Part shown: one piece after another, positions 12,282 to 61,826 of the stretch
Position numbering within the stretch: position 1 is the stretch's first letter
Layout: the number at the start of each line of letters is the position of its first letter
Assembly: GCA_948144175.1 (NCBI GenBank)
Contig: CANXME010000043.1
Location: forward strand, 930,001 to 994,000
DNA from: Closterium sp. NIES-65
Taxonomy: Eukaryota; Streptophyta; Zygnematophyceae; Desmidiales; Closteriaceae
Direction of reading: 5' to 3'
Length of the DNA: 64,000 bases
Program-made: the position numbers and the translations under genes
The notes under the pieces: generated by a model
The model's database searches: none
Told to the model about the DNA's origin: nothing
The model's input: the letters and a program-made list of their open reading frames with translations, nothing else

Positions 12282-15200
12282 CTAGTCTTCCTTCCCTGCT
12301 GCCAGCTTCAACCCCCCTTCCCCTCCTGCACCCATGCTTCCAGGCGTGGCAAGGTTGTAAGCAGCCAGCCCCAGCAGCAGCACGAGGGTCCCAAGAATAA
12401 CTCCCCCCCTCAGGGGCTGGGGCGGGCCCAGTAGAGGTAGGGGGAGGGTGAATGCTAGCACTGTCAGGGGCACTGGGGGAGTGGGAGGGGGGAGAAAGGG
12501 GAAGAGGGGTTTAAAGGGTCAGCAAGCCCCAGCAGCAGCACGAGGGTCCCAAGAATAACGCCCCCCCTCAGGGGCTGGGGCGGGCCCAGTAGAGGTAGGG
12601 GGAGGGTGAATGCGAGCACTGTCAGGGGTACTGGGGGGGGAAGGGGTGGGGAGGGAGGAGAGATCGCAAGGGTTTTAGCAGCTACCCCAGCAGGAGTGGC
12701 GTTCATGTGTGTATGTGCGCATGTGTGCATGTGCATGTGTGTATACGTGCATGTGTGCATGTGTGCATGTGTATGTGTGCATGTGCATGTGTGCATGTGT
12801 GCAGGTGCGTGTGCATGTGCACATGTGTGCATGAGTGCATAAATGCATGTAGCTCGCTTCAACACCTGCTAGGGTCATGGAGAGGGATGCAATCACTGCA
12901 GACGACTTCTTGAGTAGAGCTGGCTGTGAGACGTAAGCGAGGATGTGCATGTATGTAAGTGCGAGTGTGCCTGTGGGCATGTGTGCGTGTGTGATTTTGT
13001 GCATGAGTGCATGCAGCTGGCTTCAATTCGTGTGAGGGTCATGCAGAGAGATGCAACCACTGCAGACAGCTTTTTGAGCAGAGCGAGCAGAGAGATATGA
13101 GCAAGTGCGCATGTGCATGTATGCAGGTGCGTGTGTATGTGTGCATGAGTGCATGTATCCAGATATGTGTGCATGTATGTAGATATGTATGCATGTATGT
13201 AGATATGTATGCATGTATGTAGATATGTATGCATGTATGTAGATATGTATGCATGTATGTAGATATGTATGCATGTATGTAGATATGTGTGCACGTGCAC
13301 AGCATGCCCTCTCACTCAAGAGTTACCAGTGAGGGACATAAAGAGAGATGCCACCACTGCGGACGACTTCCTGAGCGCATGCTTGCATGCATCCCTTATT
13401 GAGATGCATGTCATCTCACTCAACTCAAATCTTACCTGTGAGGGTCATGGAGAGAGACGCAATCACAGCAGACGACTTCTTGAGAAGAGCCAGCAGCGAG
13501 ATGTTGAACGCTAGGTTGGCTGCCACGTAGAGCAGCGGGAGGAGTGGCGCTCCCTGACAGCCTGGAAAGATAGGGTGGAGGAGAGCGTGGAACCGGGGGG
13601 AGTGGAAGAGGAAGGAGCGCATTCAAGTTTTACTGAGAATACTCAATAAGCAGAGTGCATTCAAGCAGAGCGAGCAAAGAGATGTTGAACGCAAGGTTAA
13701 CTGCCACGTAAAGCAGCGGGAGCAGGGGCGCTCCCTGACAGCCTGGAAAGATGGGGTGGGGAGCGGTGAGAAGGAAAACAGGAGGACAGATGATTGCGAG
13801 CAGAGCCAGCAGGGAGATGTTGAAAGCTACTTTTGAGAATTCTCAAAAGCAGACTCGTTCTTTTGAGAATTCTCAATAGTCGCACCAATATGATTGCGAG
13901 CAGAGCCAGCAGGGAGATGCTGAAAGCTAGGTCCGTTCCAATGTAGAGTTTCGGGAGGAGTGGTGGGGACGGAAACATTGGGGCAGAGAAATGTCGGCAG
14001 ACCTTTATTGAGTCCACTTTTGAGAATTCTCAAAAGTCGCACCAACATTGGGGCAGAGAAATGTCGGCAGACCTTTATTGAGTCGACTCAAAACAAGGCC
14101 TGTAAGGCAAGATGCAATTGCAGCAGAATAACACATGCGATCCGTGCAGCTTTAACCAGGCCTGTAAGGCAAGATGCAATAACAATAGCAGCAGGAATGT
14201 CCTTGTTGAATTGAAGTTGACAAGGCACGCGGATATGTAAGGCAAGATGCGATAACAGTAGCATAACCTTCAGGTCCATTAAAGCAGGCAAGATGCTACT
14301 GTTATCATAAGTGAGTGGTTACCACTTATGATCCATTCAGCTGTAACCAAGCAAGATGCTACAGCACTTATGATCCGTTCAGCTGTAACCAGGCAAGATG
14401 CTACAGCACTTATGATCCGTTTAGCTGCAACTGACGACGCACCTGGAATGTTCTGGTTGAAGTTGAAAAGGCACGCGGCACCTTCCCGGAAGTAGCCTGG
14501 AAGCTGCGCAGGAGGGACTCTGTACCCCAGAGAGGAGATGAGCGGCAGCAGGATGAGGACGAAAAGCGCCTGTGGTGGTGGGAAGGGCGGCAGGATGAGG
14601 ATGAAAAGCGCCTGTGGTGGTGGGAAGGGCGGCAGGATGAGGATGAAAAGCGCCTGTGGTGGTGGGAAGGGCGGCAGGATGAGGATGAAAAGCGCCTGTG
14701 GTGGTGGGAAGGGCGGCAGGATGAGGATGAAAAGCGCCTGTGGTGGTGGGAAGGGCAGCAGGATGAGGATGAAAAGCGACTGTGGTGGTGGGAAGGGCGG
14801 CAGGATGAGGGAAGAGTGGGTCAGCTGATTGTGAGAGGGAAGAGTGGTGGTGGGAGGAGTGGTGGTGGGAGGAGTGGTGGTGGGAGGAGTGGTGGTGGGA
14901 GGAGTGGTGGTGGGAGGAGTGGTGGTGGGAGGAGTGGTGGTGAGAGGAGTGGTGGTGGGAGGAGTGGTGGTGGGAGGAGTGGTGGTGGGAAGGGCGGCAG
15001 AAAAAAAGAACAAGGAGGAAAGAATTGGGTCTGATTGTGCGTTGACTCATAAGTTACGTCGTTATAATGGTGCATACCAGTGAGGAGATGAGTAGCGAGT
15101 CGACTCAAAAACAGAAAGGTGACTGTTGAGGGTAGACTTGAAAATCACCCGACGTGCCAATCATATCCATAGATGAGTGGCAAAATGACTTGAGAGTCAC

Positions 15201-18200
15201 CGCGTGCCATCAAAGGGGAAAGGGTACTGGGTGATAGAATTGGAACAGAACTGATTGATTAAGAAAGAAGGCACTAGGCCTTAAGTACAAACGAGGTTGG
15301 GATGGGCAAGGCTAGGGAAAGGATGGGATGGGAATCCTAGCAACTCTCCAATTGGTGAGTTGGCAGATATGCAGGATTACGAGGGAATTCCAACCAGATA
15401 GGGTTGGGATCACAAACTACACCCAACCCACAAATAGCCTACGCGATATAGAATATAGTCCACAAAGTGTTGACAGCCTAATTCTAACACACCCCCTAGG
15501 CTGCAACACATCAGCCACAAGGAGGCCCAACACCCATGGCCGAGAGGAGGCGGTAATGATCCTCGCGAACAAGCGACTTGGTAAACAAGTCAGCAAGGTT
15601 GCAGTCGGAGGCAATGTGTTCAGCCTTCAGCTGCTCGCGCTACACCAGCTCCCGAAGAAAGTAGTGACGGACTTCAATGTGCTTGGTGCGGCCATGGAAA
15701 ACGGGGTCTTTGGTGAGATGAATGGTGCTCTCGTTGTCACACCAAAGCGTTGGGGTTGGTTGGGGATACCCCAGTTCTGTCAGCAGGAAGGAGAGCCAAC
15801 GAGCCTCCTGTGCAGCCATGGTCCCGGCATACAGCTCTGCCTCACAGGTCGACAATGAGACGGAGGACGACCGAGTGGAGCGCCAACTTACAACCCCACT
15901 GCCAAGGGTAAAGCAATACCCTTGGGACGAGCGCCGATCACTCTGGTCATCAGCATAGGATGAGTCACTGTACCCCTCAAGGCGAGCCGGGGAAGTGCCG
16001 CCAAGTGTGAGCACATAATCCAGTGTGCCTTTGAGATAGCGAAGAACCCGCTTGGCGGCAGACCAGTGGTGGCGAGTGAAGCGACCAGGTGCAACGTAGC
16101 GGGACAGTGTACTGACTGGATAGGCTAAGTCTGGTCGAATTCACATCATCGCGAACATGAGGGATCCCACAAGCTCGGGGTAAGGCTCGTCACAGGGCTC
16201 AGGTGAGGGAACGGAGGGTGCAGTGAGTTGGTGTTGCAGAGAGAGTGGGGTGGGCATTGATGCTGCTTCCTGCATCTGGAACCTCGTCAGAACGTTGTTG
16301 ATGTAAAACTTCTGCGAAAGGGTGATGGTGCGGGCTGTGCGATCACGTGTGATTTCCATTCCCAAATAGTTCGTCAGCTTCCCAAGGTCCTTCATGGCCA
16401 GCTTCTCACCAAGTGCGGTTTTGACTGCTGCCAGCTCAGTCTGATCCTTGGTGACAGGGATCATGTCATCGGCATAAACGAGGATGAAGAACCGGGAGGG
16501 TGTTGCTCGGATGAAGAGGCTGGGGTCAGAGGTGGATGGGTGAAACTCGAGGGACCCTAAGGTGCTCTTTAGCTTGTTGTGCCATTCCCGGGGAGCTTGC
16601 TTGAGGCCATACACTGGCCGATTCAGCTTCCATACAGTGCCTGGTGGAAAAGGAGCTGGAAATCCTTCGGGCCGCTCCATAAAGATTTCTTCTCGAAGGA
16701 TCCCTTGCAGGAACGCAGAAGACACATCCATGCAGTCAACCTCCATGTCATCTCGAGCAGCGACATCGAGAAGGGTGCGCAGTGTGGGAGGTTTGGCTGT
16801 GGGAGAGAATGTCTCAAAGAAGTCTAGTCCACGCTTTTAGGTAAATCCCTTGGCACAGTACCGGGCTTTGAAGACAAGAAATTCGCCTGGAAGTTGTTTC
16901 ACCCGAAAGACCCATTTTCCCTTCACAATGTTAACGCCGGAGGGAGGAGAGACGTCTGTGAAAGTTCCTGTGTGAATGAAGGCCTCACATTCTGCGACAA
17001 TGGCCCCCAACCACTGAGCGGCGTGAGGACCAGAGACTGCTTCAGCATAGGTGAGAGGTGTGGGGATGGAAAGGTTGTCGGAGAAATTGAGGGTGGGAGA
17101 GTCTGCGATGTCTGGAAAGAGAGAGCAGAGTGCGTGGATGGCTGAGTCGATATCAATCAACTCCTCATGTCTGTCTTCAAGGAGGGATGGCATGAAAGAA
17201 TAATCACCCCCGACAGGAGGAGGATTGAGAGAGACGCGAACGGAAAGGGAGAACGGTTGTGGAGGTGTGCGAGAGCGGGTGCGAGAAGCGATGGGTGAGG
17301 GAGGCGAGGCCGGAGTAGGCGTAGCGGAAGGGGAGGTGGGAGTGGGAGGGAGAGTGGAGACATGATCGTGATCAGGGGTGGGAGCAGGAGGAGGAGGAGC
17401 TGGGTGACGGCGTTGGTAGGTTTTGAGAGGAACGGGCTCGATAAGAGGAGATGCGAGAGGAGATGGAGGAGGGGTAGCGGAGGAGGGAGGGAGCGAGGGA
17501 GACTGTGTGGTACTGGAGGGGGAAGCGGGTGATGGGGGATCAGAAATGGTGGAGGGAGCGGGAAGAGGAGGAGATGGAGTGTCGGGAAGAGGGAGACTGT
17601 CAAAGTCAGCCCAAGTAAGAGAGGGAGGCGGAGGAGAGGGGGAAGCCTTGGAGGAGGGGTAGAATGGGTGGGACTCATCAAAGTAAACGTCCCGGCTGCG
17701 ATAGAGCTTGTTGGTGGAAGGATGGAGGAAGAGATAGTCTGGCGAGTCTACGTTGTGCCCGAGGTATACGCACGTGATCGTTCTGGGAGCAAGTTTGCCG
17801 CCAGCCGCACGACGGGCTTGGGAGTTGAGGAGGACATAAGAAGTGCACCCCCATAGACGAAGAGGGCGGACAAATGGTTTTTGACCCGTCCATAGCTCAG
17901 CGGGGGTGGTGTGGGTGTGATGAGGATGGGGATGGAGATTGTGGAGGGCGGCAGCATGAAGCATGGCGTACCCCCAGAGAGAGGGAGGGGCGGAGGCGTG
18001 CGTGAGGAGGCAGAGAGCAATTTGCACCAATGTACGGTTCCAGCTTTCGGCAATACCGTTCTGTTGGGGACTGTGCGGGAGAGTGAAGGTCTGACGGATA
18101 CCCTCAGTGGAGCAGTAAGCTTTGAGAGTGTTGTTGCGGAATTCACCGCCGCCGTCAGAGTGAAGGACCTTGATGGTGGTTTTGAAGTGTTTATGAGCCT

Positions 18201-21200
18201 GCTTCGCCCATTCAATGATTACGCCTGGGGCTTTGGATTTGGAGGAGAGAAGGTGGACAGACACATAGCGAGAGTAGTCATCAATAATGACAAGGAAGTA
18301 AAAGTGTCCACCGCGAGAGCGAACAGGAGCTGGGCCCCAAAGGTCCATGTGCACGCGATCGAGAGGTGCAACGGAGATGGACTCAATGAGGGGATGGGGC
18401 TGTTCACGAAGCTTGCTCTGTACACAGTCAAGGCAAGGCGACCCTAGGGTGGAGGTAGGAGAGGGAAGTGAGGTTGGAAGCCCGTGGAGGAGTTGTTTTG
18501 TGGCAAGGTCTGAAAGCGCGTGAAAGTTGATGTGGCCAAGGCAGTGATGAAAGAGCATAGTTTTGTCGGAAAGGAGGCGGCAGTGATAGGTGGAGGAGTC
18601 AAGGGAAGGTGACGGGAGGTTTGTGAGGGAGCACGTTTGAATGGGAGGTACTACGAGCGTGTATAGGTTGTTGGAGTTGAGAGTGAAGCGGGCTAGATGA
18701 ATGCCGGTTTTGGCGTCAAAGAGGTCACAGTAGTCGACATCATTGGGAAAGATGGTGATCACTTCTGCTTGTTGGATTTCACTTTGTGCAAGAAGGTTGT
18801 GGCGGAGGGTGGGGGCACAGATGCCAATGACTGTGCCCGATGGAAATGCTGGACAAGGAACTCTGGAGGACCCATGGCATTGGATGGAGAAGCTAGAGTC
18901 GGCTCCGAGGAGTGGGATGGGAGCCTGGTAAGGAACGAACGTGGTTTGGTCTTTGAGCACTGTGTGGGTGGCACCACTGTCTAGTATGAACTCGATCCCT
19001 TGTGTGTTTGAAACCTCGATGTACTGTGACCCCTTCTCATTAATAAGACCAGCACCTGAGAACAACAGGTTGAGGCGAATATCAGATAGGGTGCTATCAA
19101 CTGAGGGACTAGGCACCTCCTCTGCATCGACATAGTTCACGCGACGGGGTGGGGCCCAGTTGGGAGGGCGCTTGTTGGTGGAGACACCATGGACGTCGTA
19201 CCACTCATCATCTCGCTTCTTGAAGCAAGTTGCCTCAGGGTGGTTGGTGCCTCCGCATTTCTGCCCCGCACGTGGGCCTTTCCTAATGATGTAGGGGCAT
19301 GGGGGAAAGGAGTTGCGCCTTGGTCCTTGTTGGGAGCGGAATGGGATTCCAGGGGTGTTGCGCACAGCATTGACGGATGCTTGGGCTGCAAGGTCCTTTT
19401 CGGCGGAAAGGAGAGCTGATGCGACTTTTTCGAAGGTGAGTTCCTTGGTGGGAAGTTGCTTGAGCATGGAGCTGGTGACATTGTAGGCCGGGGTCAGTCC
19501 TACAAGTAGGCCAGCTGCAGGTGCCTGTTCGGGGAAAATGATCCAAATGTCCTCCTCATGAATGTTGCGGATTTCAGAGATGTAATCTGCCATGCCAGGG
19601 CATTCCTCAAGGCGGACCTGGAACATTCGAGGGATGAGGATGACAACACCCACTGCTGTCTTGTCATGGAAACGGTCCTGGAGGTACTACCAAATCGCAT
19701 GAGCGGAGCGAAAGGTGCTGTAGGATTTGACGAGCTCAACCGGAGTGGTGGTGATGAAAACCCTAATAACTGCTGCATCTGCCTGCTCCCACACACTGAA
19801 ATCAGTCTCGTACTTGGTGGTCTAAGCGTCAAAAGCGGCATTCTCTGCGGCAGTGGCGCCTTCGCCAAGGGGATCGGGAGGGAGAGGCATCTTTCCCTTG
19901 CCGCAGTTGAGGAGGATGTCCTTAAGGCAAATCCCTTTCAGTTTCGTGCTAAGGAGGTGCTTCTCCACCCCATAGCACCATTCTCCAAAGTTGGTGCTCG
20001 TGCCGTTGGGAGCGAGGTTGAGAATGATGAGGTTTCCGACGAGGGTAGAAGTTGAAGTCGCCATTCGCGCGGAGCGCAGCGCAGAAGTCAACGATACGAA
20101 GCGGAGCGGCGATTTTGAAAATTGATGAAGTCTGAAATGCGGAAATGTGCGATTTTGCCAATAAGATTGCGATTCCTGTTCTGCTTCTCTGCTTCGCCGA
20201 TGACCCCTTTTCTGCTGCGCCGATGACCTGTTCCGCTGCGCCGCTGACCTGTGCTGCTGTGCCGCTGAACCTGCTCTGCTGCGCCGCTGAATCTGCTCTG
20301 CTGCGCCGCTGAACCTGCTTTGCTGCGCCGCTGAACCTGTTTTGCTGCGCCGCTGAACCTGTTCCGCTGCGTTGCTGAACCTGTTCCGCTGCACCGCTGA
20401 ACCTGTTCTGCTGCGCCGCTGAACCTGTTCCGCTGCGCCGCTGAACCTGCTCTGCTGCGCCGCTGACCTGCTCTGCTGCGCCGCTGAACCTGCTCTGCTG
20501 CGCCGCTGAACCTGCTCTGCTGCACCGATGAAAACCTGCTGGAAGTTTCGAATGTGAGAAAATTGCAACGGAAATTTGAAATTTCAGAGCTCACGATGAA
20601 GGAAATTGACGGAGAAATGTGCCGCCGTGGAAATCGGAAATGCACGTAGACGGAGCGGGAAAGCACTTTTGACCAGTGCGACGATGTGAAGATGAAAAAC
20701 GCTAAGCGAAGAAGGCGTGAACCGAGAACGCCATAGCCGAGAGGAAGAGAATGATCGCGACGCCAAGGATCGGAGTCCGCGTGAGCGGAATTTGCTAGCT
20801 CGATACTATGATAGAATTGGATCTGAACTGATTGATTAAGAAAGAAGGCACTAGGTCTTAAGTACAAACAAGGTTGGGATGGGCAAGGCTAGGGAAAGGA
20901 TGGGATGGGAATCCTAGCAAATCTCCAATTGGTGAGTTGGCAGATTTGCAGGATTACGAGGGAATCCCAACCAGATAGGGTTGGGATCACAAACTACACC
21001 CAACCCACAAATAACCTACGCGATATAGAATATAGTACACAAAGTGTTGACAGCCTAATTCTAACACTGGGGGTTCATGAAAGGGTACTGGGGGTTCATG
21101 AAAGGGTACTGGGGGTTCATGAAAGGGTACTGGGGGTTCATGAAAGGGTACTGGGGGTTCATAAAAGGGTACTGGGGGTTCATGAAAGGGTACTGGGGGT

Positions 21201-24200
21201 TCATGAAAGGGTACTGGGGGTTCATAAAAGGGCGAAATCGCAGAACGAAGGGCAGAGGAGGGAGCACCTGGAAGGCTGATCCGAAGGTGTTGACAACAAA
21301 TATGTCCAACGAGCGACCCTGCGGTGTAGTGTGGTGCAGTGTGGTGTGGTGTGGTGTGGTTGGGTTGTGGTGTGGTGTTGTTCAGTGGAGCAGGTCAGGA
21401 TGCGAAGGCTTGGTATGGAACAAGCGAGTTTTGGAGGCTTGGTATGGAACAAGCGAGTTTTGACATGTGCGCACTCCAATGTGCGAATGGGAGTGCGCAT
21501 GCATATGCGATACGCATCTGAGATATGCATATGTGATATGTGACACTGTACACAAATGGTTCACAACTACAAAAGTGGATGGCTTGGATGACATTCCGGC
21601 AAGAAGACCAGTCCAATGAGAGCTTATTTTCCAAGCGCCTACATAGAAGAGCGCTTTAACTAGGGAGGGTGGTGGTGTGTGTGGCTTACGTTGAGCTTCT
21701 TGGCTGAATTTCGAAACACAGACTCCTGCCAAGGAACACATTGGCAAAGGTGAGCATTGGCTAAGGCAAAAGGAAGAAAACACAGGATTTGCTGCATCAA
21801 TAGCTCTTTAGTTGACTCAAGTGCTGTCATGAAGCATAAAATTTTGCACATGATTATGCTATGGAGGATACTGTTGGGAATAATATAGCTGAGGGAACAA
21901 CGAGAACTGTTGTTCCTTGGAACAAGACTAGCAGTGGGACAACAGTTGCTGCTGTGGGAAAAGACTCTCACCTTAATAATAGAGGATGCTGCTGGAAACA
22001 CAGTGGATACTATGAAGAGGAGGGGCCACTGGATCGCTGTTGCTGCTAGCAGAGAAGCTAATAGCGTGGATACATGATGCAATGGCGGTCCACTGCGGTG
22101 CAGTGCGGTGGAATGGGATTGGAGTGGGTGAGAGGAAGGGAGGGGCAAGGGAGAGAGAGAGAGAGAGTTGGGTTGAGTGGGGTTGGAGTGGATTGGGGAG
22201 GAGGGAAAATGGAGGGACGGTGAGGTGAGGACAGAGGGTTCGAATGCAGTGAAGAGCGATGATTGGAAAAGGTAATAGTGGAAAAAAAAAGAGCAAGGAG
22301 GTGAGAGACGCGCTGGCAACTTGTGGCATGACCGACAGTCCTGACATGGATGATGTGACGTGGCATGGTATAATGTAGCATCGGATGATGTGGCAGGGAA
22401 TGACGTGGCATGGCATGACGCCATGACATGACATGGCATCACATGACGTGGCATCACACGACGTGGCATCAAACAGCGTGGCATCATATGACTTGGCATC
22501 ACATGATGTGGCATCACATGGCTTGGCATCACATGGCGTGGCATCACATGACGTGGCATCACATGACGTGGCATCACATGACGTGGCATCACATGACGTG
22601 GCATCACATGCGCCGGCAGTACCTGGTCACCACCACCACCGCAACTCCCACAATCACGAGGAAGCATCCCAGAAGCTGCTGTGGCGAGTAGCGGCGGCCG
22701 AGGAAGACATAAGAGAGGGTGAGCTGCCACACGAGAAAGATCTGAAGGGGTTGTGTGCGGTGAAGAACGGCAGAAAGGATGGAAGATAAGAGAGGATGAA
22801 CCGCCACACCAGGAAGACCTGAACGGGAGAGAGGAGGGTGGAACAATGGCAAGGTTGTGTGCAGAGGAAAAAGGGAGGGAGGGTTGAAGAAAGAAGTGAG
22901 AGGGAGATAAGAGAGGACGAGCTGCCACACCAGGAATACCTGAAGAGATCTAGAGGGGGGAGAAGCGGCGGAAAGAGGTGGGGCGGGCCAAGGTTGTGTG
23001 CGGTGCTGGATGGCTGAGAGGATGAAAGAGATAAGAGAGGCAGAGCTGCTAGTGCGGGTGTAGTGAGGTTGTTTTTGAGACGTCTCAAAAACAACCCCTT
23101 GTGGCAAAAACAACCTCACTACACGAGAGGATGAAAGAGATAAGAGAGGCAGAGCTGCTAGGGCGGGACAACCCCTTGTGGGACCTGAAGAGAAGAAAGG
23201 GGGGGCACAGAGTAGAGTGCGATGCACAGGGTAGAGCAGAGGCAGGCACAACAGGGGAAGGCACATGTGGGAAGGCGCATGTGGGAAGGGGCGAGGAGGA
23301 AGGGCATACCTGTGAGAGCACTGGGATGAGGACTCCAGGCATATGCGCTGCAGCAAGGAGGAGGATAGGGGAGCAGAAAGGGGGGGGTGACATGGTGATG
23401 AGAAGAGATTTGGCTTGACATGGTGAGGAGAGGAGATTTGTGTTGACATGGTGAGGAGAGGAGATTGGGGTTAACATGGTGAGGAGAGGAGATTTGGCTT
23501 GACATGGTGAGGAGAGGAGATTGGGGTTAACATGGTGAGGAGAGGAGATTTGGCTTGACATGGTGAGGAGAGGAGATTGGGGTTAACATGGTGAGGAGAG
23601 GAGATCTGGCTTGACATGGTGAGGAGAGGAGATTGGGGTTAACATGGTGAGGAGAGGAGATTTGGCTTGACATGGTGAGGAGAGGAGATTGGGGTTAACA
23701 TGGTGATGAGAAGAGATTTGGGTTGACATGGTGAGGAGAGGAGATTGGGGTTAACATGGTGATGAGAAGAGATTTGGCTTGACATGGTGAGGAGAGGAGA
23801 TTTGGCTTGACATGGTGAGGAGAGGAGATTGGGGTTAACATGGTGAGGAGAGGAGATTTGGGTTGGCATGGTGAGGAGAGGAGATTGGGGTTAACATGGT
23901 GAGGAGAGGAGATTTGGGTTGGCATGGTGAGGAGAGGAGATTGGGGTTAACATGGTGAGGAGAGGAGATTTGGCTTGACATGGTGAGGAGAGGAGATTGG
24001 GGTTAACATGGTGAGGAGAGGAGATTTGGGTTGGCATGGTGAGGAGAGGAGATTGGGGTTAACATGGTGAGGAGAGGAGATTTGGCTTGACATGGTGAGG
24101 AGAGGAGATTGGGGTTAACATGGTGAGGAGAGGAGATTTGGGTTGGCATGGTGAGGAGAGGAGATTGGGGTTAACATGGTGAGGAGAGGAGATTTGGCTT

Positions 24201-27764: not shown

Positions 27765-29060
27765 TTGAAGGCGTAACCGCGGGAGATTAGCGAATCAGTG
27801 CGGGAGATTAGCGAATCAGACCTAATGCCTGAAAAAATCGCGAATGTTGGAAATGGCTGAAAATCTCGCGAACGTTGAGCGATTCTCGTCGAGATAACTT
27901 GTTGCCTACGCGGGTGGCGCGACGTTTCGTCGAAAAACGATGCCACGCCAGGATGACGTCGACACTCAGACTTTCAGTCACTCACAGCGTACTCAACAAG
28001 TCGACAGGTTTCTAGATGATTCACTCGGAAGTATTGATGATTACACATGGTGTCATCACGAAGACATCCGCTGCTCCACGGAATACGGTGCTAAGGGCGC
28101 TTCACCTGTCGGTTCGAACAACACACTCGTTCGAACAGGCGAAACGTTACTCGTTTCGCCTATGTTCGTAGTGGTTTTCGTGACGTCGCGAAGCACAATT
28201 TCGCCAATTTGAACAGAGCTGTCACCTCAAGCACGATTTTCATCATCCCGCACGTTCGAACACGTTTGTTCGAACAGGTTGGGATAGGTGACACACAATT
28301 CCGCACAAACGACTGATATGATTGGTCCACAGTCTTCCGGGTCGCCCATGAACGAATGCGACCCGGCCAGACGTCGCCAATGTTTGGGACCCAATGTTTG
28401 GCGACGTCGCTCTTTTGTGGGCGACGTCGCTGTGTTCGAACAGACCGCGTGTGCGAATAGCGATGGCGTCACCTGTGATGGCCTGTGTCACATTCGCTCA
28501 TTGTACGTATTTGTGTTCGAACTCATTTGGGATACTGTTCGTACAGTCAAACTGATACGTCGGTTCGGATTTTGGCCTTCCGCCCCTCAGGTGAAGCGCC
28601 CTAAAATAGGTCGATTCTGATCCGCATATAAAATATCGGACGACATGAAAGATTCTAGCCACCATATGCAAACACGACCCACGGTATGCGATATTAGCTG
28701 GCCGTTCTATCACCTGGTATTAAGTTATTGCCAGATCTTGAGTAGGTATAATTTGCAGCATTACACTAATTCCACATACCGTAATGAAAGACAGCTTATA
28801 TGTGCAAGGGTTGCAGGGATTCGGCTAGCTATAAAAGTACAGGAATTTTTACGGACAGCCCTCCATCAACCTACTGTTTGAAGTAGTGCATGCAACGGTA
28901 ATATTGCAGTGCCATCCAGAATTGGTAATGCGGCATGCTTGTAGTATGGTATTTGAAGTGCGTAATTGGTTGCATACTGTTGGGCTGAGCAATCCTCAAC
29001 ACTCAACACATGCAAATAATCACACTGATATAGGCTTGAACCATGCACTTGGCTCTACTG
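27765..29060. other. intergenic / promoter region of CLT-a
   Basis: No recognisable gene. The part next to the ATG (27765-27950) has a tandem GGGAGATTAGCGAATCAG. Between 28110 and 28520 the palindromic motif TTCGAAC occurs at least six times. A TATA-like GCATATAAAATAT is at 28623. Open frames here (up to 110 aa) have no recognisable features. Confidence 0.4.
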
Positions 29061-29074
29061 CTTGAAGTGGTAAC

Positions 29075-30170: not shown

Positions 30171-30219
30171 CATACTAATTAGAGGGCGTGAATGGCACAG
30201 CAGAACAGAGCAGGACTAG

Positions 30220-30297
30220 GAGGGCAGTGGCAGTGGCAGTGGCAGTGGCAGTGGCAGTGGCAGTGGCAGTGGCAGTGGCAGTGGCAGTGGCAGTCTC
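30220..30297. repeat. hexanucleotide array
   Basis: (GGCAGT)n, about 13 units. A shorter related tract occurs at the equivalent place near 45070-45120, close to the segmental-duplication border. Confidence 0.9.
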
Positions 30298-50371: not shown

Positions 50372-53300
50372 ATGTTAACCACTTTAAGACGAGGCACGTT
50401 AGCTCTTGCTAAGAGGCCAGCCGGGATCGTCGGAGCTCTCGTGCTGGGAAGCCTGGGTGCCGGCGGAGCCGCCATAGCAGCGACAGACGGCGGTTTGAAG
50501 ACTGACAGCCGGCATGTTAAGCGGCTGATGCTTAGCGCAGATGGGATCGTGAGATCGTCAAGAGCCGTGGGAACGGTGAGTGAGGGGAGACTGGATGAGA
50601 AAATGGACGATCCGTGACTGCATATTCCAATAAAACGTTATTCCCTGATTAACGTGAGAGAGGGGAGACTGGAGAAGGGAAATGGCGATCCATGATTGCT
50701 TTCCACAATCGTTATTCCCTACGAGCGCAATTCTTTGATTGTGATGCCTGGAAGAAGGACACATATCCTTTTGCAGCTTGGCGTGTCAAGAATTAGTGAC
50801 ATTTTAAAGCCATATTGTTAATGTACGAATTGATAGCTGAACGTTTGTGATAGATAGTAAACGAAGAGCTGAAAGTGGTTTTATTGGCCACGTGGTTCGC
50901 TCCTCTGTTCCGTTCCTCCGTCATGCATTCCTCCCCTCATTTGCAGTTCGCTATTAACAGCATCGACTACAAGGTGTCGGCATTGACCAATTCATTGGAT
51001 AAGCTCAAGAAAGAAGCGCCAGCAGAATATGCACGGATCCGGTCAGAGGTGGGTCTTAGACCGACTGAGAGATTATGGCTTTGATTCGACTCCAAAAGAG
51101 TAGCGCCAGCAGAATGTGTACGAATCTGGTCCCAGGTGGGCCTGAGACAGAATAAAATGTCATGTGAGGGCTTTTAGTGAGGGCTTCAAGTGAAGGTTTC
51201 CTTTCTTGCCCCCTTCCTTGCTTGATAGCTTGCTGGCTTCCATTCTTTTCTCCTTCCTTCCTTCCTCCACCCAACCCCTCTCACTCTATCCCTCACTCCA
51301 CACCGTCAGATCCACCAGCGATCAGCGGACAGGATTCTGCGGCTGTGCGAGGCGAATCGTGGAATCTACATCAAAGCAGGGCAGTTCATTGCCACTCTGC
51401 AGCAGCTGCCTCGGGAGTACCGCACCACCCTCACTGTGCTGCAGGATCAGGTGGAGTGAAAAAAAAAACCCTGAACCTTGAAGATTTTGCCACAAACGCC
51501 CAATCTGTGGTTTCGAGCCAAATTCCGGCATTGACATCAAAGCAGGTCAATTCATTGCCGCTCTGCAGCAGCTGCCTTGGGATTACCGCACGACCCTCAC
51601 TGTGCTGCAGGACCAGGTGTGCTGAAGAAACCTAAACCCTGAACCTTGAACCTTATGCCACAAACGCTCAATCTGGGGTGAGGGATACTGGGAAATCTCA
51701 AGGCTATTCGTGGCATCTACATCAAGGCGGGGCAGCTCATTGCCACTCGGCAGCAGCTGCCTCAGGAATACCGCACGACCCTCACAGTGCTGCAGGATCA
51801 GGTGCTGGGAAAAGTTCTAAATTTTGAACTTTGAACCCTTTGTCATAAACCCTCAAGCTGGGGCAACTGGGAAATCTCGAGGCAAATCATGGCGTTGGCG
51901 TTTACATCAAAAGGGGGCAGTTTTTTGCGACCCCTCGAAAACATGCATCACTGTGCTGCAGGATCAGGTACACTGAAGAAACCTGAACCCCACGCTTTTA
52001 GCCCGTTGTCAGAAATCCCCAAGGTGGGGTTAGAAGGATCGGGGGATTTCAAGCGCATGGGACATTCACATCAACGCACGGCAGTTCAAGGCTGGGGTGG
52101 GGGTCGTGTGCTCAGCTCAGTGTGATTGGCCGCGTGTGGAAGGACTTTTGAGGCGCCTCAAAAGTCAGTTCAAGGCTGGGGGTCGTGTGCTCAGCTCAGT
52201 GTGATTGGCCGCGTGTGGAAGGACTTTTGAGGCGCCTCAAAAGTCAGTTCAAGGCTGGGGGTCGTGTGCTCAGCTCAGTGTGATTGGCCGCGTGTGGAAG
52301 GACTTTTGAGGCGCCTCAAAAGTCAGTTCAAGGCTGGGGGTCGTGTGCTCAGCTCAGTGTGATTGGCCGCGTGTGGAAGGACTTTTGAGGCGCCTCAAAA
52401 GTCAGTTCAAGGCTGGGGGTCGTGTGCTCAGCTCAGTGTGATTGGCCGTGTGTGGAAGAAAGGATTATGGGAAACTTGCCTTGTTCACTGCTCTGCCCTG
52501 GCTGGTTCTTCTTGCAGGCTCGGGGCCGTCCGTTTTATGTGATTGACCGCGTGTTCAAGGAGGAATTCGGCAAGAGTTCCAAGGAGATGTGAGTGTGGTG
52601 AGGGAGGTGTGCGTGTGGTGAAGGAGGTGTGCGTGTGGTGAAGGAGGTGTGCGTGTGGTGAAGGAGGTGTGCGTGTGGTGAGGGAGGTGTGCGTGTGGTG
52701 AAGGAGGTGTGCGTGTGGTGAGGGAGGTGTGCGTGTGGTGAGGGAGGTGTGCGTGTGGTGAGGGAGGTGTGCGTGTGGTGAAGGAGGTGTGCGTGTGATG
52801 AGGGAGGTGTGCGTGTGGTGAGGGAGGTGTGCGTGTGGTGAAGGAGGTGTGCGTGTGGTGAGGGAGGTGTGCGTGTGGTGAAGGAGGTGTGCGTGTGGTG
52901 AGGGAGGTGTGCGTGTGGTGAGGGAGATGTGCGTGTGGTGAAGGAGGTGTGCGTGTGGTGAGGGAGTTGTGTGTGGTGAAGGAGGTGTGCGTGTGGTGAG
53001 GGAGGTGTGCGTGTGGTGAAGGAGGTGTGCGTGTGGTGAGGGAGGTGTGCGTGTGGTGAAGGAGGTGTGCGTGTGGTGAGGGAGGTGTGCGTGTGGTGAC
53101 GGAGGTGTGCGTGTGGTGAGGGAGGTGTGCGTGTGGTGAAGGGTGCGTGTGGTGAGGGAGGTGTGCGTGTGGTGAAGGAGGTGTGCGTGTGGTGACGGAT
53201 GTGTGCGTGTGGTGAAGGAGGTGTGCATGTGGTGAGGGAGGTGTGCGTGTGGTGAAGGAGGTGTGCGTGTGGTGAGGGAGGTGTGTGTGTGGTGAAGGAG

Positions 53301-56300: not shown

Positions 56301-59300
56301 GGTCTGGCTGTGTGTTCTGGCGCCGTGTGTGTCTGTCTCTGTGCTAGCTCTGCTTCATGATTTGTTCTTGCTGTGTGTCCTGAAAGTCAATCGTCATAAT
56401 CTCCCCTGTGTCTCCCCCTTCTCGTTCTTTTTTGAGTCGACTCAAAAATCAACTCGCTACAATGTCACACAGTCAATCGTCATAATCTCCCCTTTGTCTC
56501 CCCCTTCTCGTTCTTTCCCATCACCAGGACTTCACCACCAAGAGAGTCCTGACAATGGAGTTTATGAACGGGTGCAAGGTGTGTTTTATGTATGCACTGT
56601 GTATCACGTGCTGACTTTTGAGACGTCTCAAAAGTCGTTTTATGTATGCACTGTGTATCACGTGCTGCTGCTCCTCGTCTCGAGTCCCCAACCCTGGCAG
56701 TTTTAGAATACGCTAATAAAATACCCCACACTGGAGAGCATTGCAAAGCTCTCAGCCCTAATTCCATTGGCCCTCCTTATTTGCAGATTATTCCTTCCTT
56801 TTCCTCTTCGCCCACCTTATTCTTCCCTTTCTCCTCAGATTGACGATTTGGAGGGGATCAAGAAGCAGGGCCTGAACCCCCTAGAGGTACGTGAATTCGT
56901 GCTCCAATCATTAGGCAATTCATGAGGTAAGTAGATGCATGCTGGTGAGTTTTGAGTCAATTCAAAACGCTCTCAGCTCAGATTGACGATTTGGAGGGGA
57001 TCAAGAAGAAGCAGGGCCTGAAGCCTCTAGGGGTACGTGCATTCGTGCACCAGGTAGTTAGGCAAATTCCGATGCACATACATTTGGTGTGCCGGAGTGT
57101 TTCGAGTCGACTGAAATCCCTCTCTTGTTGACGGCTCTGGAGGGGCATAAAGAATGTTGTCGCTCTAACCCTCTAGAGGTATTGAACACTGGTCAGCACG
57201 GGTCAGCCATGCACACAACTCGATTATTGAAAGCAATGCATTGGGCATGATCTTGCAGAGCCTCCTTCCCCCTGTTACCTCTTCTCTTCCCATAGTGCCT
57301 TCTTTTGGTCGTCTCTCCCCACTCCCCTCCCTTCCCCTCGTCAGGCGGCGGCAAGAGACGGTCTTTTGCCATGACCAACCCCACCCCTCCCCTCCCCTCC
57401 CTCCTTTCCCCTTATGCGCAGGTGGCGGCGCTGCTGGTGGAGGTGTTTGCAGAGATGGTGTTCTGCCACGGCCACCTGCACGGGGACCACCACCTTATTG
57501 TGCTCCCCTCTCCCCATGCCCCTCCCCCTCTTTCTCCCCTCATTCCCCTGACTTTCCCCTTTGCGCAGGTGGCGGCACTGCTGGTGGAGGTGTTTGCGGA
57601 GATGGTGTTCTGTCACGGCCACCTGCATGGGGACATTTGCTCTTCCCATGGAACCCCCTCCAAACCCTGAAACTTAAACCCTGACTCCAAAACCCCATCA
57701 GGTGGCGGCGCTGCTGGTGGAGGTTTTTGCAGAGATGGTGTTCTGCCACGGCCACCTGCATGGCGACCCGCACCCGGGCAATGTGCTCATTCAGGCACAC
57801 GCACCCGGCACCACCAAGCCTGGGCAGCGGAAGTTCGATATTGGTGAGTGAGGGTGTGTGATAGGATATTGGGCACTGGTGGTTGTCGCGTCTTCTCACC
57901 CACCTGCATGGGGACCCCCACCCCACACGGGCAATGTGCTCATCCAGGCACAAGCCTGGACACATAAAGTTGAGTCGATTTTTTAGTCGACTCAAAAATC
58001 GACTGTGCTCATCCAGGCACAAGCCTGGACTCAGAAAGTTTGACATAGGTGAGCGCGTGTGGTAGTGTGTTGGGTATTGGTTATTATTGACGCTTCTTCA
58101 TGTCCCCCTGCCTGGGGAACTCACACCCACCCCCATTGGGGCAATGTGCTCTCCCCTCCCTCACATCACAATACCCATGCCTTCCATCCCCCTCCCCCTC
58201 TCATCTTCCCTCCTCCCCTTCCCCCCCCCGTCACAGTCCTGCTGGACCATGGGCTCTACAGGGAGATGGACGACGGCTTCAGAAGGGATTTCTGCCAGCT
58301 GTGGCGCCCACTCATTCTGTCGGTCCCCTTTACCTCTCTCTCGCTCTCGTTCCCCTTCCTCCTGTCACAGTCCTCCTGGACCATGGGCTCTACAGGGAGA
58401 TGGACGACGGCTTCAGAAGGGACTTCTGCCAGCTGTGGCGGTCGCTCATTCTGACGGACATGGGGGGGGTGCAGCGGTGGGGGGAGCGGCTGGGCGTGGG
58501 GGAATATTCAAGGTTCCTGCCTGCGCTCTTCACTGCAAGACCCTTCCAAAGGTGGGCGTCCAATGGAGCCCCACTTAGGGAGCGTCCAAAGTCAGCTGAA
58601 TATTCAAGGTTCCTGCCTGCGCTCTTCACTGCAAGGCCCTTCCAAAGGTGGGTATCTGGCGGGCATGGGAGGGCCGTGTTGAAAGGACAGTGACTGTAGA
58701 GAGGGGCTCTTATATGGAGGGCCCTTCTGTCAGCTGCGGTGCTCGCTCGTTACTGTCGGTTCAAGTTTCCTTTCTGTGCTCCTCATTGCAAGACCCTCCC
58801 AGAGGTGAGTGTTACAAGGGAGTAAAGCGATGTGGGTCTTGCTTGCCATCCTCCCCTGCTCTCATTCTTCCTCTTACAGATATGCACCCTGCTTCCGTTT
58901 TCCCCCAGCACCAACATGCGATGGGGGCAGCGCATGTCACCTCACCTGAAGTGGACAAGAGTTTGAGCTATCAGCCCTTGGTTTTCGACTGGTTCCCATC
59001 TTCTCCTGCTCTCACTCACTCCTCCCCGCTATCACACAGCATAACGCGGCGGGGGCAGCACATGTCACCCAAGGAGGAGAAGATTCTGATGAAGGAGATG
59101 AAGGCGATCAGCCCGCAGAACCTGACAGGTTCCCATGCTGTCTTCCCCTCTCCTCCTTCCATTGCTCCCCTTAACCATGCAGCAAGACGCAGTGGGGGCA
59201 GCGTATGTCACCGGAGGAGGAGAAGAGTCTGAGGAGGGAGATCAAGGCCATCAGCCCGCAGGACCTAATCGTTCCCCGTTGTTCTCCTCCTCTCGTTCCC

Positions 59301-61826
59301 AACATTCTGTTGTACCCAACCAGCAAAACGCGGTGGGGGCAGCGCATGTCACCAGAAGAGGAGAAGAGCCTGCGGAGGGAGATCAAGGCCATCAGCCCGC
59401 AGGACCTGACGGCGTTGGTGGAGGGGCTGCCTGAAGACATGTTCCTGGTCATGCGCACCGAGTGAGTGTTGGTTGGGGTAAGGGGTGGATTACCTTTCGT
59501 CCAATAAAGAGCAGACATTGCCTCTGCCCACAGGACCTGACGGCGGTGGTGGAGGGGCTGCCTGAAGACATGTTCCTCGTGATGCGCACCGAGTGAGTCG
59601 GGGAGAAGGCTGAAGTGGTTGTGGTAGTAAGGAAGGTGGTGGGAGGTCGTGGAGAATGGGCTGGTGGAGTGAGGCGGAGAGAGGGAGATACAGGTGGAGA
59701 GAATGGACGGGTATGGGGAGATCAAGGCGATCAGCCCGCAGGACCTGACGGCGGTTGTGGAGGGGCTGCCTGAAGACATGTTCCTGGTCATGCGCACCGA
59801 GTGAGTGTTGTGAGGGATGGAGAGACAGTTGTAGCTTGAAAGGTATCTTGAGCACTAGAGAGCAGTCATTGCATCAGCCCCCATTGCCTGACAGCCGTTG
59901 TGGAGGGGCTTCCCAAGGACATGTTCCTGGTGATGCGCACTAAGTGAGTGAGTGAGTGAGGGATGGAGAGACCGTTGTAGCTTGAAAGCTATCTTGTGCA
60001 CTAGAGAGAGCAGTCAGTCATCGCCTCCAGGACCTGACAGCCGTGGTGGAGGGGCTTCCCAAAGACATGTTGCTCGTGGTGCGCACCGAGTGAGTGGTAA
60101 CTGCTTGTATTGTATTGCGTGCATTAGCGAGCAGTTATTGCCGGTTTTTGAGAATTCTCAAAAACCTCTGAAGAAAGATGGACCTGATGGCCATGGTGGA
60201 GGGGCCGCCGAATGACATTCTCCTGGTGGTGTGCATGTAGTGAGTGGAGGGGAAAGGGTGTGAGGGAGGGTGTATGAGGAGCAGTGAGTGTGTGAGCGGC
60301 GTTGACGCTCTGAGTTTTTTAAGCCGAAAATGAATGTTTGCTCATTCACATCCCCCCATTCCGCCTGTTCCTCTCCTGCCATGCGACTCTCTCCCCTCCC
60401 AGCAACCTCGCCCATCACAGCGCTGGGAGCAACACCCAAGCTGAAGGCTTTGGAGGTATCGCAGCAACCTAATTCACCTTTCCTTGTGCCCTTGCCTCCC
60501 TTCCCCTGCCCCGTGTCTCCCCTCCCAGCAACCTCATCCGGCAGCACATCACAGCGCTGGGAGCGACGCCCAAGCTGATGCTCTCAATCAATAGCAACCT
60601 TCTCATTTCCCCTCCCTGTGCTGATCGTACCTGTCCTGCTCTCTGTCTCCCCTCCCAGCAACCTCATTCGGCAGCACATCACAGCGCTGGGAGCGACGCC
60701 CAAGCTGAGGCTGCAGATCAACGGACGGTTTGCTGTGGCAGGGCTGGCTGTACGGCACTCTGAAGAAGGTGAGGCTTGGTGGCGGGTAGTCGGAACAAGG
60801 TGGGTGGGTGTGTGTTGGCAGTGCAGTCGTTGCACATGCTTGCTCAAACAACTGTAGTAGAAGGGCATGCTGTCTGCTGGTCTTCTGTTGAAAGGTTTAT
60901 TTCTGAGTCCACTCAAAAATAGGCTCATCGCACACGGATTATATGTTGAGAGAATATTTGTTGCTTGGACCGGACCCGACTACCAATGATGACAACTGTA
61001 GCAGAAGGGCATGCTGTCTGCTGGTCTGCTGTTGAATGCTGAGGCTGCAGATCAATGGGCGGTTCGCTGTGGCTCAGTTGACCGCAGCTGGACTAAGTGA
61101 CTTTTGAGTCGACCCAAAAGTCACTTTGTTTTGAGTCGACTCAAAAGTCACTTTGTTTTGAGTCGACTCAAAGATCAATGGGCGGTTCGCTGTGGCTCAG
61201 TTGACCGCAACTGGACTGGCACGTTTGCACCTGGTCCTGGACCCCACTCTGTTTTGAGTCGACTGAAAACAAAGCACGGCTCCTTCTGAGTCGGCTCAAA
61301 ACAAACCACGGCTCCTTTTGCGTCGACTCAAAACACAGGCACGTTTGCACCTGGTCCTGGACCCCACTTTGTGTTCGCACCCATTGTCGCACCCCGTCTG
61401 TCTCCTTCAGGCCACCTGACATCCAACCTGGCAGCTTACCTGAGAGCACAGCTAGACTTGGCGCATTTGATGCTCAGAATTCGTAAGTCTTAATCTTCTC
61501 ACTTCACTCCTCACGTCCCTCTTCACTAACCTCATTTCCCTCTAGATTTCTCTCCATACTTACCCTCCTCACTGCAGACTGTTATGCATGTTTCTTTCTT
61601 CAAATCTTCTCACTTTTCTGCATGTTCTACTTCGCATATTCTACCTTGGCTTCTCTTTTTGTTGTTCAACTCAGGGGCATGGGAGGTTGCCCAGACAATA
61701 ATCGACTTAGTGGTTCGCTTGAAGCACTATTTGGATTTGGAGTACCTTAGGTGGCGGCAAGCTCTCATAAATGTGTTAGTCTCTTTGAACCTAGCAGATG
61801 ATAAGGCAAGAATGCTTCTGTATTAG
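50372..61826 (+). CDS. ABC1/UbiB-family atypical kinase, ADCK1-like
   Basis: Sixteen exons: 50372-50575, 50947-51048, 51310-51450, 52518-52588, 54253-54346, 54975-55052, 55540-55606, 56007-56092, 56528-56578, 56839-56886, 57702-57843, 58371-58551, 59324-59461, 60659-60768, 61411-61482, 61675-61826. All are GT-AG with consistent phases; 578 residues. The N-terminus (MLTTLRRGTLALAKRPAG) looks like a mitochondrial or plastid presequence followed by a Gly/Ala-rich membrane segment. ABC1 hallmarks in order: KxGQ (GIYIKAGQFIATLQQLP), AAAS loop (EEEAIAAASLAQVHRATLPS), VAVKVQYPRLEEQVATD (Lys and ExD), FCHGHLHGDPHPGN (catalytic loop), VLLDHGLYREMDDGF (DHG, DFG-equivalent). Members act in quinone or lipid metabolism of mitochondria and plastids; substrate here is unknown. 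Introns contain many truncated exon copies, so automatic models may mis-join. Confidence 0.88.
51530..51972 (+). repeat. three partial copies of ABC1K exon 3
   Basis: Copies of the KAGQF...LTVLQDQ segment with a GTG donor near 51532-51616 and 51712-51800, and a shorter one near 51888-51968. Unit about 175 bp, including CTGAACCTTGAACCTTATGC-type spacer. Confidence 0.9.
52075..52470. repeat. 79-bp tandem repeat with a GCGC-centred palindrome in every unit
   Basis: Palindromes GACTTTTGAGGCGCCTCAAA+AGTC (24 bp) start at 52143, 52222, 52301 and 52380, spaced exactly 79 bp. Between them lies a diverged copy of the exon 4 start (AGGCTGGGGGTCGTGTGCTC ... GTGATTGGCCGCGTGTGGAA compared with GTGATTGACCGCGTGTTCAA). 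Confidence 0.95.
52589..53877. repeat. 20-bp minisatellite, about 64 copies, growing from the exon 4 donor
   Basis: Unit GGAGGTGTGCGTGTGGTGAR, R being A or G. The first unit overlaps the exon 4 donor (AAGGAGAT|GTGAGTGTGGTGA), so the array appears to have expanded from the exon-intron junction. A second copy of the exon 4 end with GTGGGTGTGGTGAAGGAGGT follows near 53925-53990. Long minus-strand His/Thr/Pro frames are by-products. Confidence 0.97.
54420..54475 (+). repeat. partial copy of ABC1K exon 5
   Basis: Repeats the exon end (CGAGCACTGAGCGACACTGC ... GCTGTGAAG|GTGGGT). Confidence 0.8.
54528..54895 (+). repeat. four partial copies of ABC1K exon 6
   Basis: Copies near 54528-54565, 54640-54700, 54735-54790 and 54832-54893 carry GAGGAGCAGGTAGCAACGGA...ATGGGCTTTCT. 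The complete exon with donor is at 54975-55052. Units are about 95-140 bp. Confidence 0.9.
55141..55297. repeat. 30-bp-arm hairpin between direct repeats
   Basis: Arms 55172-55201 and 55236-55265 are perfectly complementary (CGGGTCACTGGTCATGAAGA.../...TCTTCATGACCAGTGACCCG), with a 34-nt loop. The ~28 bp on the left (TTTCCCACTGTTTCTGCTTG) is repeated on the right. Lies in ABC1K intron 6. Confidence 0.95.
55635..55710. repeat. inverted copy of the 20-bp minisatellite
   Basis: About four units CCTCACCACACGCACACCTC, the reverse complement of the array at 52589-53877, now in intron 7, three exons downstream. Confidence 0.9.
56155..56200 (+). repeat. partial copy of ABC1K exon 8
   Basis: CACAAGGAGGAGGTCAAAGT ... 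AAGATACTGTGG|GTGAGAG repeats the exon 8 end and donor. Confidence 0.85.
56429..56448. repeat. palindrome, TCGA centre, between direct repeats
   Basis: Perfect 20 bp. AATCGTCATAATCTCCCC and CCCCTTCTCGTTCTT occur on both sides (from about 56389 and 56475). Confidence 0.95.
56613..56636. repeat. palindrome, ACGT centre, between direct repeats
   Basis: Perfect 24 bp (GAC + TTTTGAGACGTCTCAAAA + GTC). TTTTATGTATGCACTGTGTA...GTGCTG occurs on both sides (56584 and 56637). Confidence 0.95.
56960..57185 (+). repeat. copies of ABC1K exon 10
   Basis: A near-complete copy with acceptor and donor at about 56982-57032 (IDDLEGIKKKQGLKPLG, one codon longer, in frame) and a decayed one near 57122-57180. Imperfect palindromes TTTGAGTCAATTCAAA and TTCGAGTCGACTGAA mark the junctions. 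The first could act as an alternative exon. Confidence 0.8.
57419..57645 (+). repeat. two partial copies of ABC1K exon 11
   Basis: Copies near 57419-57492 and 57567-57640 begin at an acceptor (GCGCAG) and repeat VAALLVEVFAEMVFCHGHLH. Both stop short of the PHPGN motif. Confidence 0.9.
57893..58155 (+). repeat. donor-side copies of ABC1K exon 11
   Basis: Fragments with GGCAATGTGCTCATCCAGGC and a GACATAG|GTGAG-type donor near 57897-57965, 58003-58048 and a decayed one near 58100-58150. A foldback (TCGATTTTTTAGTCGACTCA) lies between the first two. Confidence 0.85.
58240..58325 (+). repeat. partial copy of ABC1K exon 12
   Basis: Begins at acceptor CGTCACAG and repeats VLLDHGLYREMDDGF...CQLWR, but lacks a donor and the rest of the exon. 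Confidence 0.85.
58590..58812 (+). repeat. donor-side copies of ABC1K exon 12
   Basis: A near-exact copy of the exon end (YSRFLPALFTARPFQR, donor GTGGGT) at 58598-58648 and a decayed one near 58765-58805. Confidence 0.85.
58905..60245 (+). repeat. partial copies of ABC1K exon 13 on both sides of the real exon
   Basis: Acceptor-side copies near 58905-58960, 59042-59130 and 59180-59270 (MSPEEEK.LRREIKAISPQ-type). Donor-side copies near 59530-59594, 59725-59803, 59878-59945, 60025-60092 and 60175-60240 (LTAVVEGLPEDMFLVMRTE-type, mostly with GTGAG donors). The complete exon is 59324-59461. Confidence 0.85.
60143..60166. repeat. palindrome, AATT centre
   Basis: Perfect 24 bp (GGT + TTTTGAGAATTCTCAAAA + ACC), between two exon 13 donor-side copies. 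Confidence 0.95.
60400..60585 (+). repeat. acceptor-side copies of ABC1K exon 14
   Basis: Two copies (about 60400-60452 and 60527-60582) repeat CAGCAACCTC...CACAGCGCTGGGAGC before the complete exon at 60659. Spacing is about 130 bp. Confidence 0.85.
61095..61335. repeat. cluster of six palindromes in ABC1K intron 14
   Basis: TTTTGAGTCGACTCAAAA-type palindromes near 61102, 61135, 61156, 61252, 61288 and 61317, some with one mismatch. Repeated arms AGTGAC/GTCACT and direct copies of exon 14-derived GATCAATGGGCGGTTCGCTG and of GCACGTTTGCACCTGGTCCT surround them. Confidence 0.9.

Follow-up and report, generated by a model that had tools for sequence, protein, structure and literature searches.

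Penelope-like elements (PLEs) of Adineta vaga carry a palindrome at the 5' end of their terminal repeats, 18 bp long in Pen2 and near-perfect over 38 bp in Pen3a (PMC3846280, in the part of the text available). The Penelope protein of Anolis PAc cleaves and extends both target strands, with reverse transcription beginning inside the RNA (PMC11167929, likewise available in part). Here we describe a family of short palindromes with an 18-bp core and the arms TTTTGAG and CTCAAAA in a 64-kb stretch of Closterium sp. NIES-65 DNA (the window, C43:930001–994000, inside an assembly of 874,075,685 bp). The palindromic loci have the structure of insertions, two of them have empty sites, and part of their arms match the starts of the terminal repeats of a larger retroelement. 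The core starts one full element and sits at the predicted place in six more. We consider it probable that each palindrome derives from the 5' terminus of the pseudo-LTRs (LTR, long terminal repeat) of Closterium PLEs, where it forms the terminal palindrome, and that the tiny loci are micro-insertions of the element tip.

Within the window, TTGAGNNNNCTCAA occurs 29 times; 100 shuffles gave a mean of 0.11, with none reaching 29. The full TTTTGAGNNNNCTCAAAA is present in 19 exact copies there and in 30,327 across the assembly, where a reversed-pattern control found 4. A first-pass annotation, made from the letters alone, had reported more than 25 palindromes with these arms and proposed the whole-assembly search and the shuffle comparison; its count is confirmed, and both comparisons show the enrichment. 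The four centres it listed account for 23 of the 29 palindromes (TCGA 9, AATT 5, ACGT 5, GCGC 4), and the remaining 6 have other centres. All 20 loop-less window palindromes with arms of at least 8 bp contain the TTGAG core, and ten simulated windows held on average 1.2 such palindromes of any sequence. Conversely, 64 of the 70 copies of TTTTGAG on the two strands of the window lie inside such palindromes, with up to 4 mismatches allowed. A scan of viral contigs with the extended palindrome, from which the window's own genome records were possibly omitted, gave 0 matches.

We then characterized the loci in a 264-kb sample comprising the window and 20 further 10-kb stretches of the assembly (L005–L024), which were mostly picked around listed matches and are not a random genome sample. 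It holds 108 cores with at most one mismatch, grouped in 68 clusters, 49 of them isolated; the centres of its 69 exact cores are TCGA in 24, ACGT in 18, GCGC in 14, AATT in 6 and others in 7. Tight, ungapped flank duplication was found at 32 of the 48 testable isolated cores (67%) versus 431 of 2500 random positions (17%), and a gapped test gave 28 of 49 versus 618 of 4000. The window DNA is rich in tandem repeats, which bears on all flank controls. The duplications at isolated cores span 16–159 bp with a median of 35.5, so that the earlier statements that most palindromes have duplicated flanks, and that the copies are 20–80 bp long, are fair descriptions; the excess of flanking direct repeats, whose absence the annotation had said would tell against its proposal, is present. 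The paired copies are identical at 6 of the 32 loci and at least 95% identical at 16, and some insertion events therefore look young. An early control with a looser distance (29 of 43 versus 28% of random positions at a score of at least 30) is superseded by the tighter tests. For the base immediately preceding the left copy, an apparent preference (C at 1 of 48) was set aside, since the 48 rows include array members and inserts often end in C, which would shift the copy boundary.

The micro-insertions share one layout. The first k1 post-core bases, in reverse complement, are followed by the 18-bp core and the first k2 post-core bases, and the duplicated target lies outside. At the 26 best-preserved loci the target duplications measure 16–115 bp, k1 ranges from 0 to 25 and k2 from 0 to 41; the two are often unequal and agree within 1 base at 10 loci. 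The median insert size is 34 bp. The first-pass annotation had noted that the arms extend outward, and the perfect 38-bp palindrome at 32001–32038 is indeed present; the extensions that it described as locus-specific often match element families instead.

Two loci in the window have an unoccupied counterpart. The loci 32011 and 45722 belong to longer repeat families whose related members in the window carry one flank copy and no palindrome. The halves of 32011 align to overlapping stretches (12433–12571 with 12539–12660, and 31800–31844 with 31812–31926), as do those of 45722 (46103–46209 with 46162–46306). These empty sites fit insertion with target duplication, not tandem duplication beside an old palindrome.

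Contig C1835 carries a near-identical stretch, which we compared with C43 at 22 loci. The core number is equal at 19, two of which have none. At 56430, C1835 has one additional copy–palindrome unit (86 bp); at 40849 it lacks the palindrome and one copy (120 bp); and 32011 is removed in a 229-bp loss that is bounded by a longer repeat, which makes its absence uninformative as evidence of insertion. Since losses could produce such differences, they serve here solely as evidence that units appear and disappear. The two contigs also differ at a 42-bp tandem array of 15 units (window 33706–34335), whose counterpart on C1835 comprises ~4.1 kb of array, and at 28095–28600, where 506 bp of the window are missing from C1835 and may be a separate insertion.

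The insert at 56430 led to a parent element. Its 41 nt have 28 listed matching places besides the window and C1835, and three pairs, of which one lies on C1965 and two on C1847, show the 41-nt tip continuing into a 399-bp direct repeat whose copies lie 3527 bp apart. The three pairs share one flank and so may descend from a single insertion. The complete element is 3926 bp long, is inserted in a hAT transposon related to the hAT in the window (L035/L034), and is flanked by a target duplication of 24–26 bp, AATGTTGTGCGCAAC(T/A)GGCACTCG, at both sides. Both 399-bp repeats begin with the 18-bp core. In L035, where the ends are fixed, k1 is 2–3 and the remainder of the element lies on the other side. 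A 78%-identical relative on a different contig (L030) also starts with the core.

Several features of this retroelement look Penelope-like: reverse-transcriptase motifs, direct terminal repeats, a hammerhead motif and the 24–26-bp target duplication. Its first open frame has no known domains, and the reverse-transcriptase motifs lie in broken pieces; we tentatively take KPADK, GTAMG, FIDDG and FLDL in the L034 pieces to be motifs of Penelope-type reverse transcriptases. A PDB search found no reverse-transcriptase match for the element piece, and a structure model of a reverse-transcriptase piece was too poor for use (mean pLDDT 48). Direct terminal repeats surround the coding region, which is the pseudo-LTR arrangement of PLEs, and the terminal repeat contains a minimal hammerhead motif with stems I–III, in which stem III shows a compensatory change from CC/GG to CT/AG in L047. 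The length of the target duplication varies, as in PLEs, from 24–26 bp at the full element to 290 bp at a terminal-repeat piece. Tandem reverse-transcriptase copies occur on C95 and C2081. Reverse-transcriptase matches also run head to tail on C614, C714, C744, C1803, C671, C919, C927, C969 and C2347, at regular intervals of ~6–9 kb; their open frames are long, and the arrays may belong to chromosome ends. A predicted protein of Closterium NIES-65 (P0121) contains the same reverse transcriptase followed by sequence read as hAT.

Two other element types were considered and rejected. A miniature inverted-repeat transposable element, or any DNA transposon with terminal inverted repeats, would have a fixed short target duplication, and the observed range is that given above for isolated cores. 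Plant retrozymes are hammerhead-bearing, LTR-like elements without coding capacity and with a 4-bp target duplication; the reverse-transcriptase motifs and the 24–26-bp duplication of the parent rule them out.

To ask whether the core marks other elements of this kind, we used a 173-aa reverse-transcriptase piece as query, which returned at least 150 scored matches at many identity levels. Eight of 150, spread across these levels, were probed over ~500 bp each at the place predicted from the first element, 2.83 kb upstream. Six of the eight carry the core there, where ~0.15 would be expected by an arithmetic estimate from mean density. The centres are TCGA in L040, L041 and L047, ACGT in L042 and L043, and GCGC in L044 (with one arm mismatch). 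At five of the probed loci the palindrome reaches 0–5 bases to the left beyond the core, with the insertion ends not fixed. Elements with an ACGT centre continue CACTCCTTCTTTCACGTGGC, and a nearly identical tail is found on the micro-insertions at window position 40849 and at L021:4603. Overall, 35 of 107 cores (array members included) have arms that match one of seven element starts with a score of at least 5, compared with ~1.3% of random positions, and all 12 cores that score at least 7 agree in centre class with the element they match, one TCGG being counted as a changed TCGA. The centre class (TCGA, ACGT or GCGC) marks the element family. Because many arm extensions are the next bases of a terminal repeat, the tiny insert amounts to an element tip joined head to head; on the sequence comparison, namely the arm matches, the centre concordance and the insert at 56430, the micro-insertions take their sequence from the terminal repeat of the parent.

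Genome-wide, 54 sites combine the core with a hammerhead core at the spacing of the terminal repeat, and 4 do so at a spacing 220 bp longer (chance estimate 4.0). They include 12 same-strand pairs, 11 of which lie 3.3–3.8 kb apart, and 1 inverted pair. Thirty-two of the 54 are within 5 kb, on the same strand, of one of 51 reverse-transcriptase matches, a subset of the 150 scored. A looser pattern of core plus CTGANGA, without GAAAC, gave 365 sites where ~460 are estimated by chance; it says nothing and was dropped as evidence.

The loci annotated in the window, all on the + strand, are as follows.

13974–14084 (+): 41-bp copy 13974–14014, AATT-class insert 14015–14043, identical copy 14044–14084.
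23016–23167 (+): 43-bp copies (1 difference), ACGT-class insert of 66 bp whose outer arms are inverted and whose inside is slightly rearranged.
26537–27259 (+): 290-bp direct duplication (288/290 identical) flanking a 143-bp Penelope-like terminal-repeat piece, 26827–26969; the counterpart on C1835 is a single copy with no insert.
26821–26860 (+): hammerhead-ribozyme-like motif in the 143-bp terminal-repeat piece, its first bases overlapping the end of the duplication.
29613–29714 (+): 37-bp copies (3 differences) around TTGACTTTTGAGTCTACTCAAAAGTCAA (29650–29677).
31966–32073 (+): 33-bp copies (2 differences), 42-bp ACGT-class insert 31999–32040; empty site in related window repeats.
36780–36817 (+): site in the window hAT that matches the insertion point of the full-length Penelope-like element in the related hAT copies L035/L034.
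38056–38249 (+): 85-bp copies (7 differences), TCGA-class insert 38141–38164.
40767–40968 (+): 82-bp copies (5 differences), diverged ACGT-class insert 40849–40886 with centre ACAT and tail ..CTTCTTTCACGTGGC.
44532–44616 (+): 27-bp copies (1 difference), ACGT-class insert 44559–44589.
44611–44704 (+): 33-bp identical copies, TCGA-class insert 44644–44671; 6-bp overlap with the event at 44532–44616.
45676–45798 (+): 44-bp identical copies, ACGT-class insert 45720–45754; empty site in related repeats 45831–46335.
52082–52458 (+): GCGC-class array, copy-(palindrome-copy)x4, with 5 flank copies and 4 palindromes.
56385–56515 (+): 45-bp copies (1 difference), insert 56430–56470 matching the first 41 nt of a TCGA-class terminal repeat.
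56583–56667 (+): 31-bp identical copies around ACTTTTGAGACGTCTCAAAAGTC (56614–56636).
57935–58040 (+): 37-bp copies (2 differences), TCGA-class insert 57972–58003.
61049–61372 (+): two adjoining loci; at each, direct copies enclose TCGA-class palindromes in a short tandem series.

At 13974–14084 the end of the target duplication coincides exactly with the centre, between TTTATTGAGTC and GACTCAAAA, of the older palindrome at 14076. Besides the palindromes, the window contains a Copia-type integrase frame (16837–19653, − strand), a hAT/DUF659 transposase in two frames (34674–36953, + strand), and several tandem copies of an exon-like stretch (59037–60250) near a frame with a weak ABC1-kinase match. 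All 120 relatives of the hAT transposase frame among the matches listed come from Closterium strains, and one NIES-64 protein matches 67% of the frame at 100% identity.

How might an element tip be inserted on its own? We propose that, at a staggered break or a pair of nicks, both target 3' ends, offset by the length of the later duplication, would serve as primers from which the element RNA is reverse-transcribed near its 5' end. Synthesis would proceed to the RNA 5' end, and both products would end in the same self-complementary 18 nt. Because that end of the RNA is self-complementary, the two cDNA ends could anneal like sticky ends, and fill-in would yield copy–palindrome–copy. A full-length element would result where priming on one side occurs at the distant end of the RNA and only a few bases are added on the other. 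Unequal exchange or slippage could later multiply the copy–palindrome unit into minisatellites, and the array at 52082–52458 shows how a scar can grow into one. A wider version of this proposal is possible rather than probable: Penelope reverse transcriptases without a nuclease would routinely patch staggered breaks throughout the genome, the 5' palindrome serving as a built-in sticky end that closes them, and would have left ~30,000 scars. The scars would then record break positions and overhang lengths, and would be a main seed of new minisatellites.

A number of observations weigh against the Penelope-tip origin or leave it incomplete. For the parent, Pfam RVT_1 scored the L034 reverse-transcriptase pieces at E 0.04–0.09 only, short of the cut-off, and the Rfam hammerhead models found no match either in the terminal repeat or at 26821–26860. 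The GIY-YIG endonuclease is canonical in PLEs and absent from the known endonuclease-deficient PLEs. A search of the whole assembly for its domain (PF01541) gave no match at E 0.001 or better; the control gave hits in 12 of the 14 genomes, a domain that is divergent or split by introns could escape the search, and ~484 bp of the read element were not seen. If this absence is true and not a limit of sensitivity, the breaks would come from elsewhere, which would account for the wide spread in duplication length. That the reverse transcriptase of the element made the micro-insertions is an inference, if a likely one.

The loci themselves add further exceptions. At the threshold used, 16 of the 48 isolated cores have no tight flank duplication, and the presence–absence differences between C43 and C1835 could be recombination losses between copies. 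Inserts with two arms show complementarity between them at 79 of 114 positions rather than throughout; three loci whose arms are rearranged or uncertain (23073, L008:7040 and L023:5302) contribute 29 of the 35 misfits. Two of the eight probed reverse-transcriptase loci lack the core, L045 being a minisatellite and L046 other sequence. The arms of 72 of the 107 cores score below 5 against the seven element starts, and are either short or from families not seen. For the AATT class, for which no separate search was made, no parent element was found.

The same tips could also arise by self-priming, in which the 3' palindrome of an antisense RNA folds back and copies itself, and the resulting head-to-head hairpin is captured at a staggered break. 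We consider this rather unlikely, yet this is how the head-to-head terminal repeats of Adineta vaga, with their palindromic junctions, have been interpreted in print (PMC3846280, in the available part of the text), and the 10 of 26 loci whose mirrored arms agree within 1 base fit it. Unequal arms would need extra steps, as would target duplications that occur regardless of arm equality. The earlier suggestion of hairpin-primed template switching came close to this published self-priming, which is still a rival for the last step. A less favoured alternative, in our view improbable, is that the palindrome is an independent miniature element or a hot spot for a hairpin nuclease, and was merely acquired by the retroelements. 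It draws on the imbalance between 30,327 cores and at least 150 scored reverse-transcriptase matches, and on the neighbouring loci L009:6156 and L009:6215, where the two gaps between three flank copies of ~41 bp are occupied first by a GCGC-class and then by an ACGT-class palindrome, as if the junction were preferred and had been hit twice by different families. Against it, both direct repeats of the full element start with the core and 11 same-strand pairs of core plus hammerhead lie 3.3–3.8 kb apart, from which we conclude that the core is part of the element; moreover, the arms continue into family-specific terminal-repeat sequence with the matching centre. The first reading in the first-pass annotation, a very small mobile palindrome whose target duplications are very long, is apt in descriptive terms; what it did not recognize is that a larger retroelement has this palindrome at its 5' terminus and that many arm extensions are the terminal sequence of that element.

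Ordinary tandem duplication, with the palindrome as a by-product or a pre-existing fragile site, draws on the 17% of random positions that are also flank-duplicated. We regard it as highly improbable at the palindromes, given the 67% at isolated cores, the related repeats with a single copy and no palindrome at the empty site, and the array at 52082–52458, where the copies number one more than the palindromes, as insertion with target duplication predicts. An artefact of library or assembly, the third reading in the annotation, is hardly credible: one assembly stands behind all data, but the arms are class-specific, the centres track the reverse-transcriptase clades, in several of which the core stands at the expected start of the element, and two separate near-identical contigs share the same loci, with equal core counts at 19 of 22. 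We retain the micro-insertion of Penelope tips as the preferred reading. The ~30,000 cores, many with readable ends, arms and target duplication, allow two-ended priming to be tested against self-priming by counting.

Terminal palindromes of PLEs are already known, and the annotation's remark that no named element has this structure has to be qualified to that extent (18 and 38 bp; PMC3846280, available in part); it stands for free-standing micro-insertions, of which we found no report. Among the papers listed by literature searches, with most subscription papers outside their scope, there was no earlier description of free-standing Penelope-tip micro-insertions, and the available main text of the Closterium genome paper (PMC10407611) does not contain the word 'palindrome'. 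What appears to be new is the occurrence of such insertions in tens of thousands, with target duplications of tens of bases. The loci are a natural record of DNA joining by a poorly understood class of jumping genes. They bear on how Penelope elements integrate, on the reason why palindromes and head-to-head arrangements occur in some of their terminal repeats, and on how they function without a nuclease, and they show that the tip of a retroelement can seed minisatellites.

The closest described systems each share part of this picture. In mammalian interstitial telomeric repeats the template is telomerase RNA; to our knowledge, break patching by mammalian telomerase involves no palindromic bridge, and we know of no tie between the mobile palindromes of organelles and either a retroelement terminus or long target duplications. 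Those organelle families, the short palindromic repeats of Volvox and a yeast mitochondrial family, are alike in being short, dispersed and thought to be mobile, as far as the available parts of the sources go. Telomerase, a related type of reverse transcriptase, likewise patches double-strand breaks with a short RNA-templated insert (PMC2246262, available in part). The Anolis PAc element is similar in its tandem arrangement and in the hammerhead motif of its terminal repeats, and differs in carrying GIY-YIG; the accessible part of that report (PMC11167929) does not describe palindromic tip inserts and lacks the word 'palindrome'. Endonuclease-deficient PLEs resemble the Closterium elements in having a reverse transcriptase without a detected nuclease and in priming from exposed 3' ends, but are largely restricted to chromosome ends, whereas the Closterium scars are contig-internal and flanked by duplications (PMC3846280, in the part available). 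According to the same portion of that paper, the PLEs of Adineta vaga have direct and inverted terminal repeats, a 5' palindrome, head-to-head junctions and target duplications, as here, with the palindrome on long elements and duplications of 8–10 bp or none. In Closterium, where PF01541 did not detect GIY-YIG, the palindrome is mostly free-standing, reaches ~30,000 copies and lies between duplications of tens of bases.

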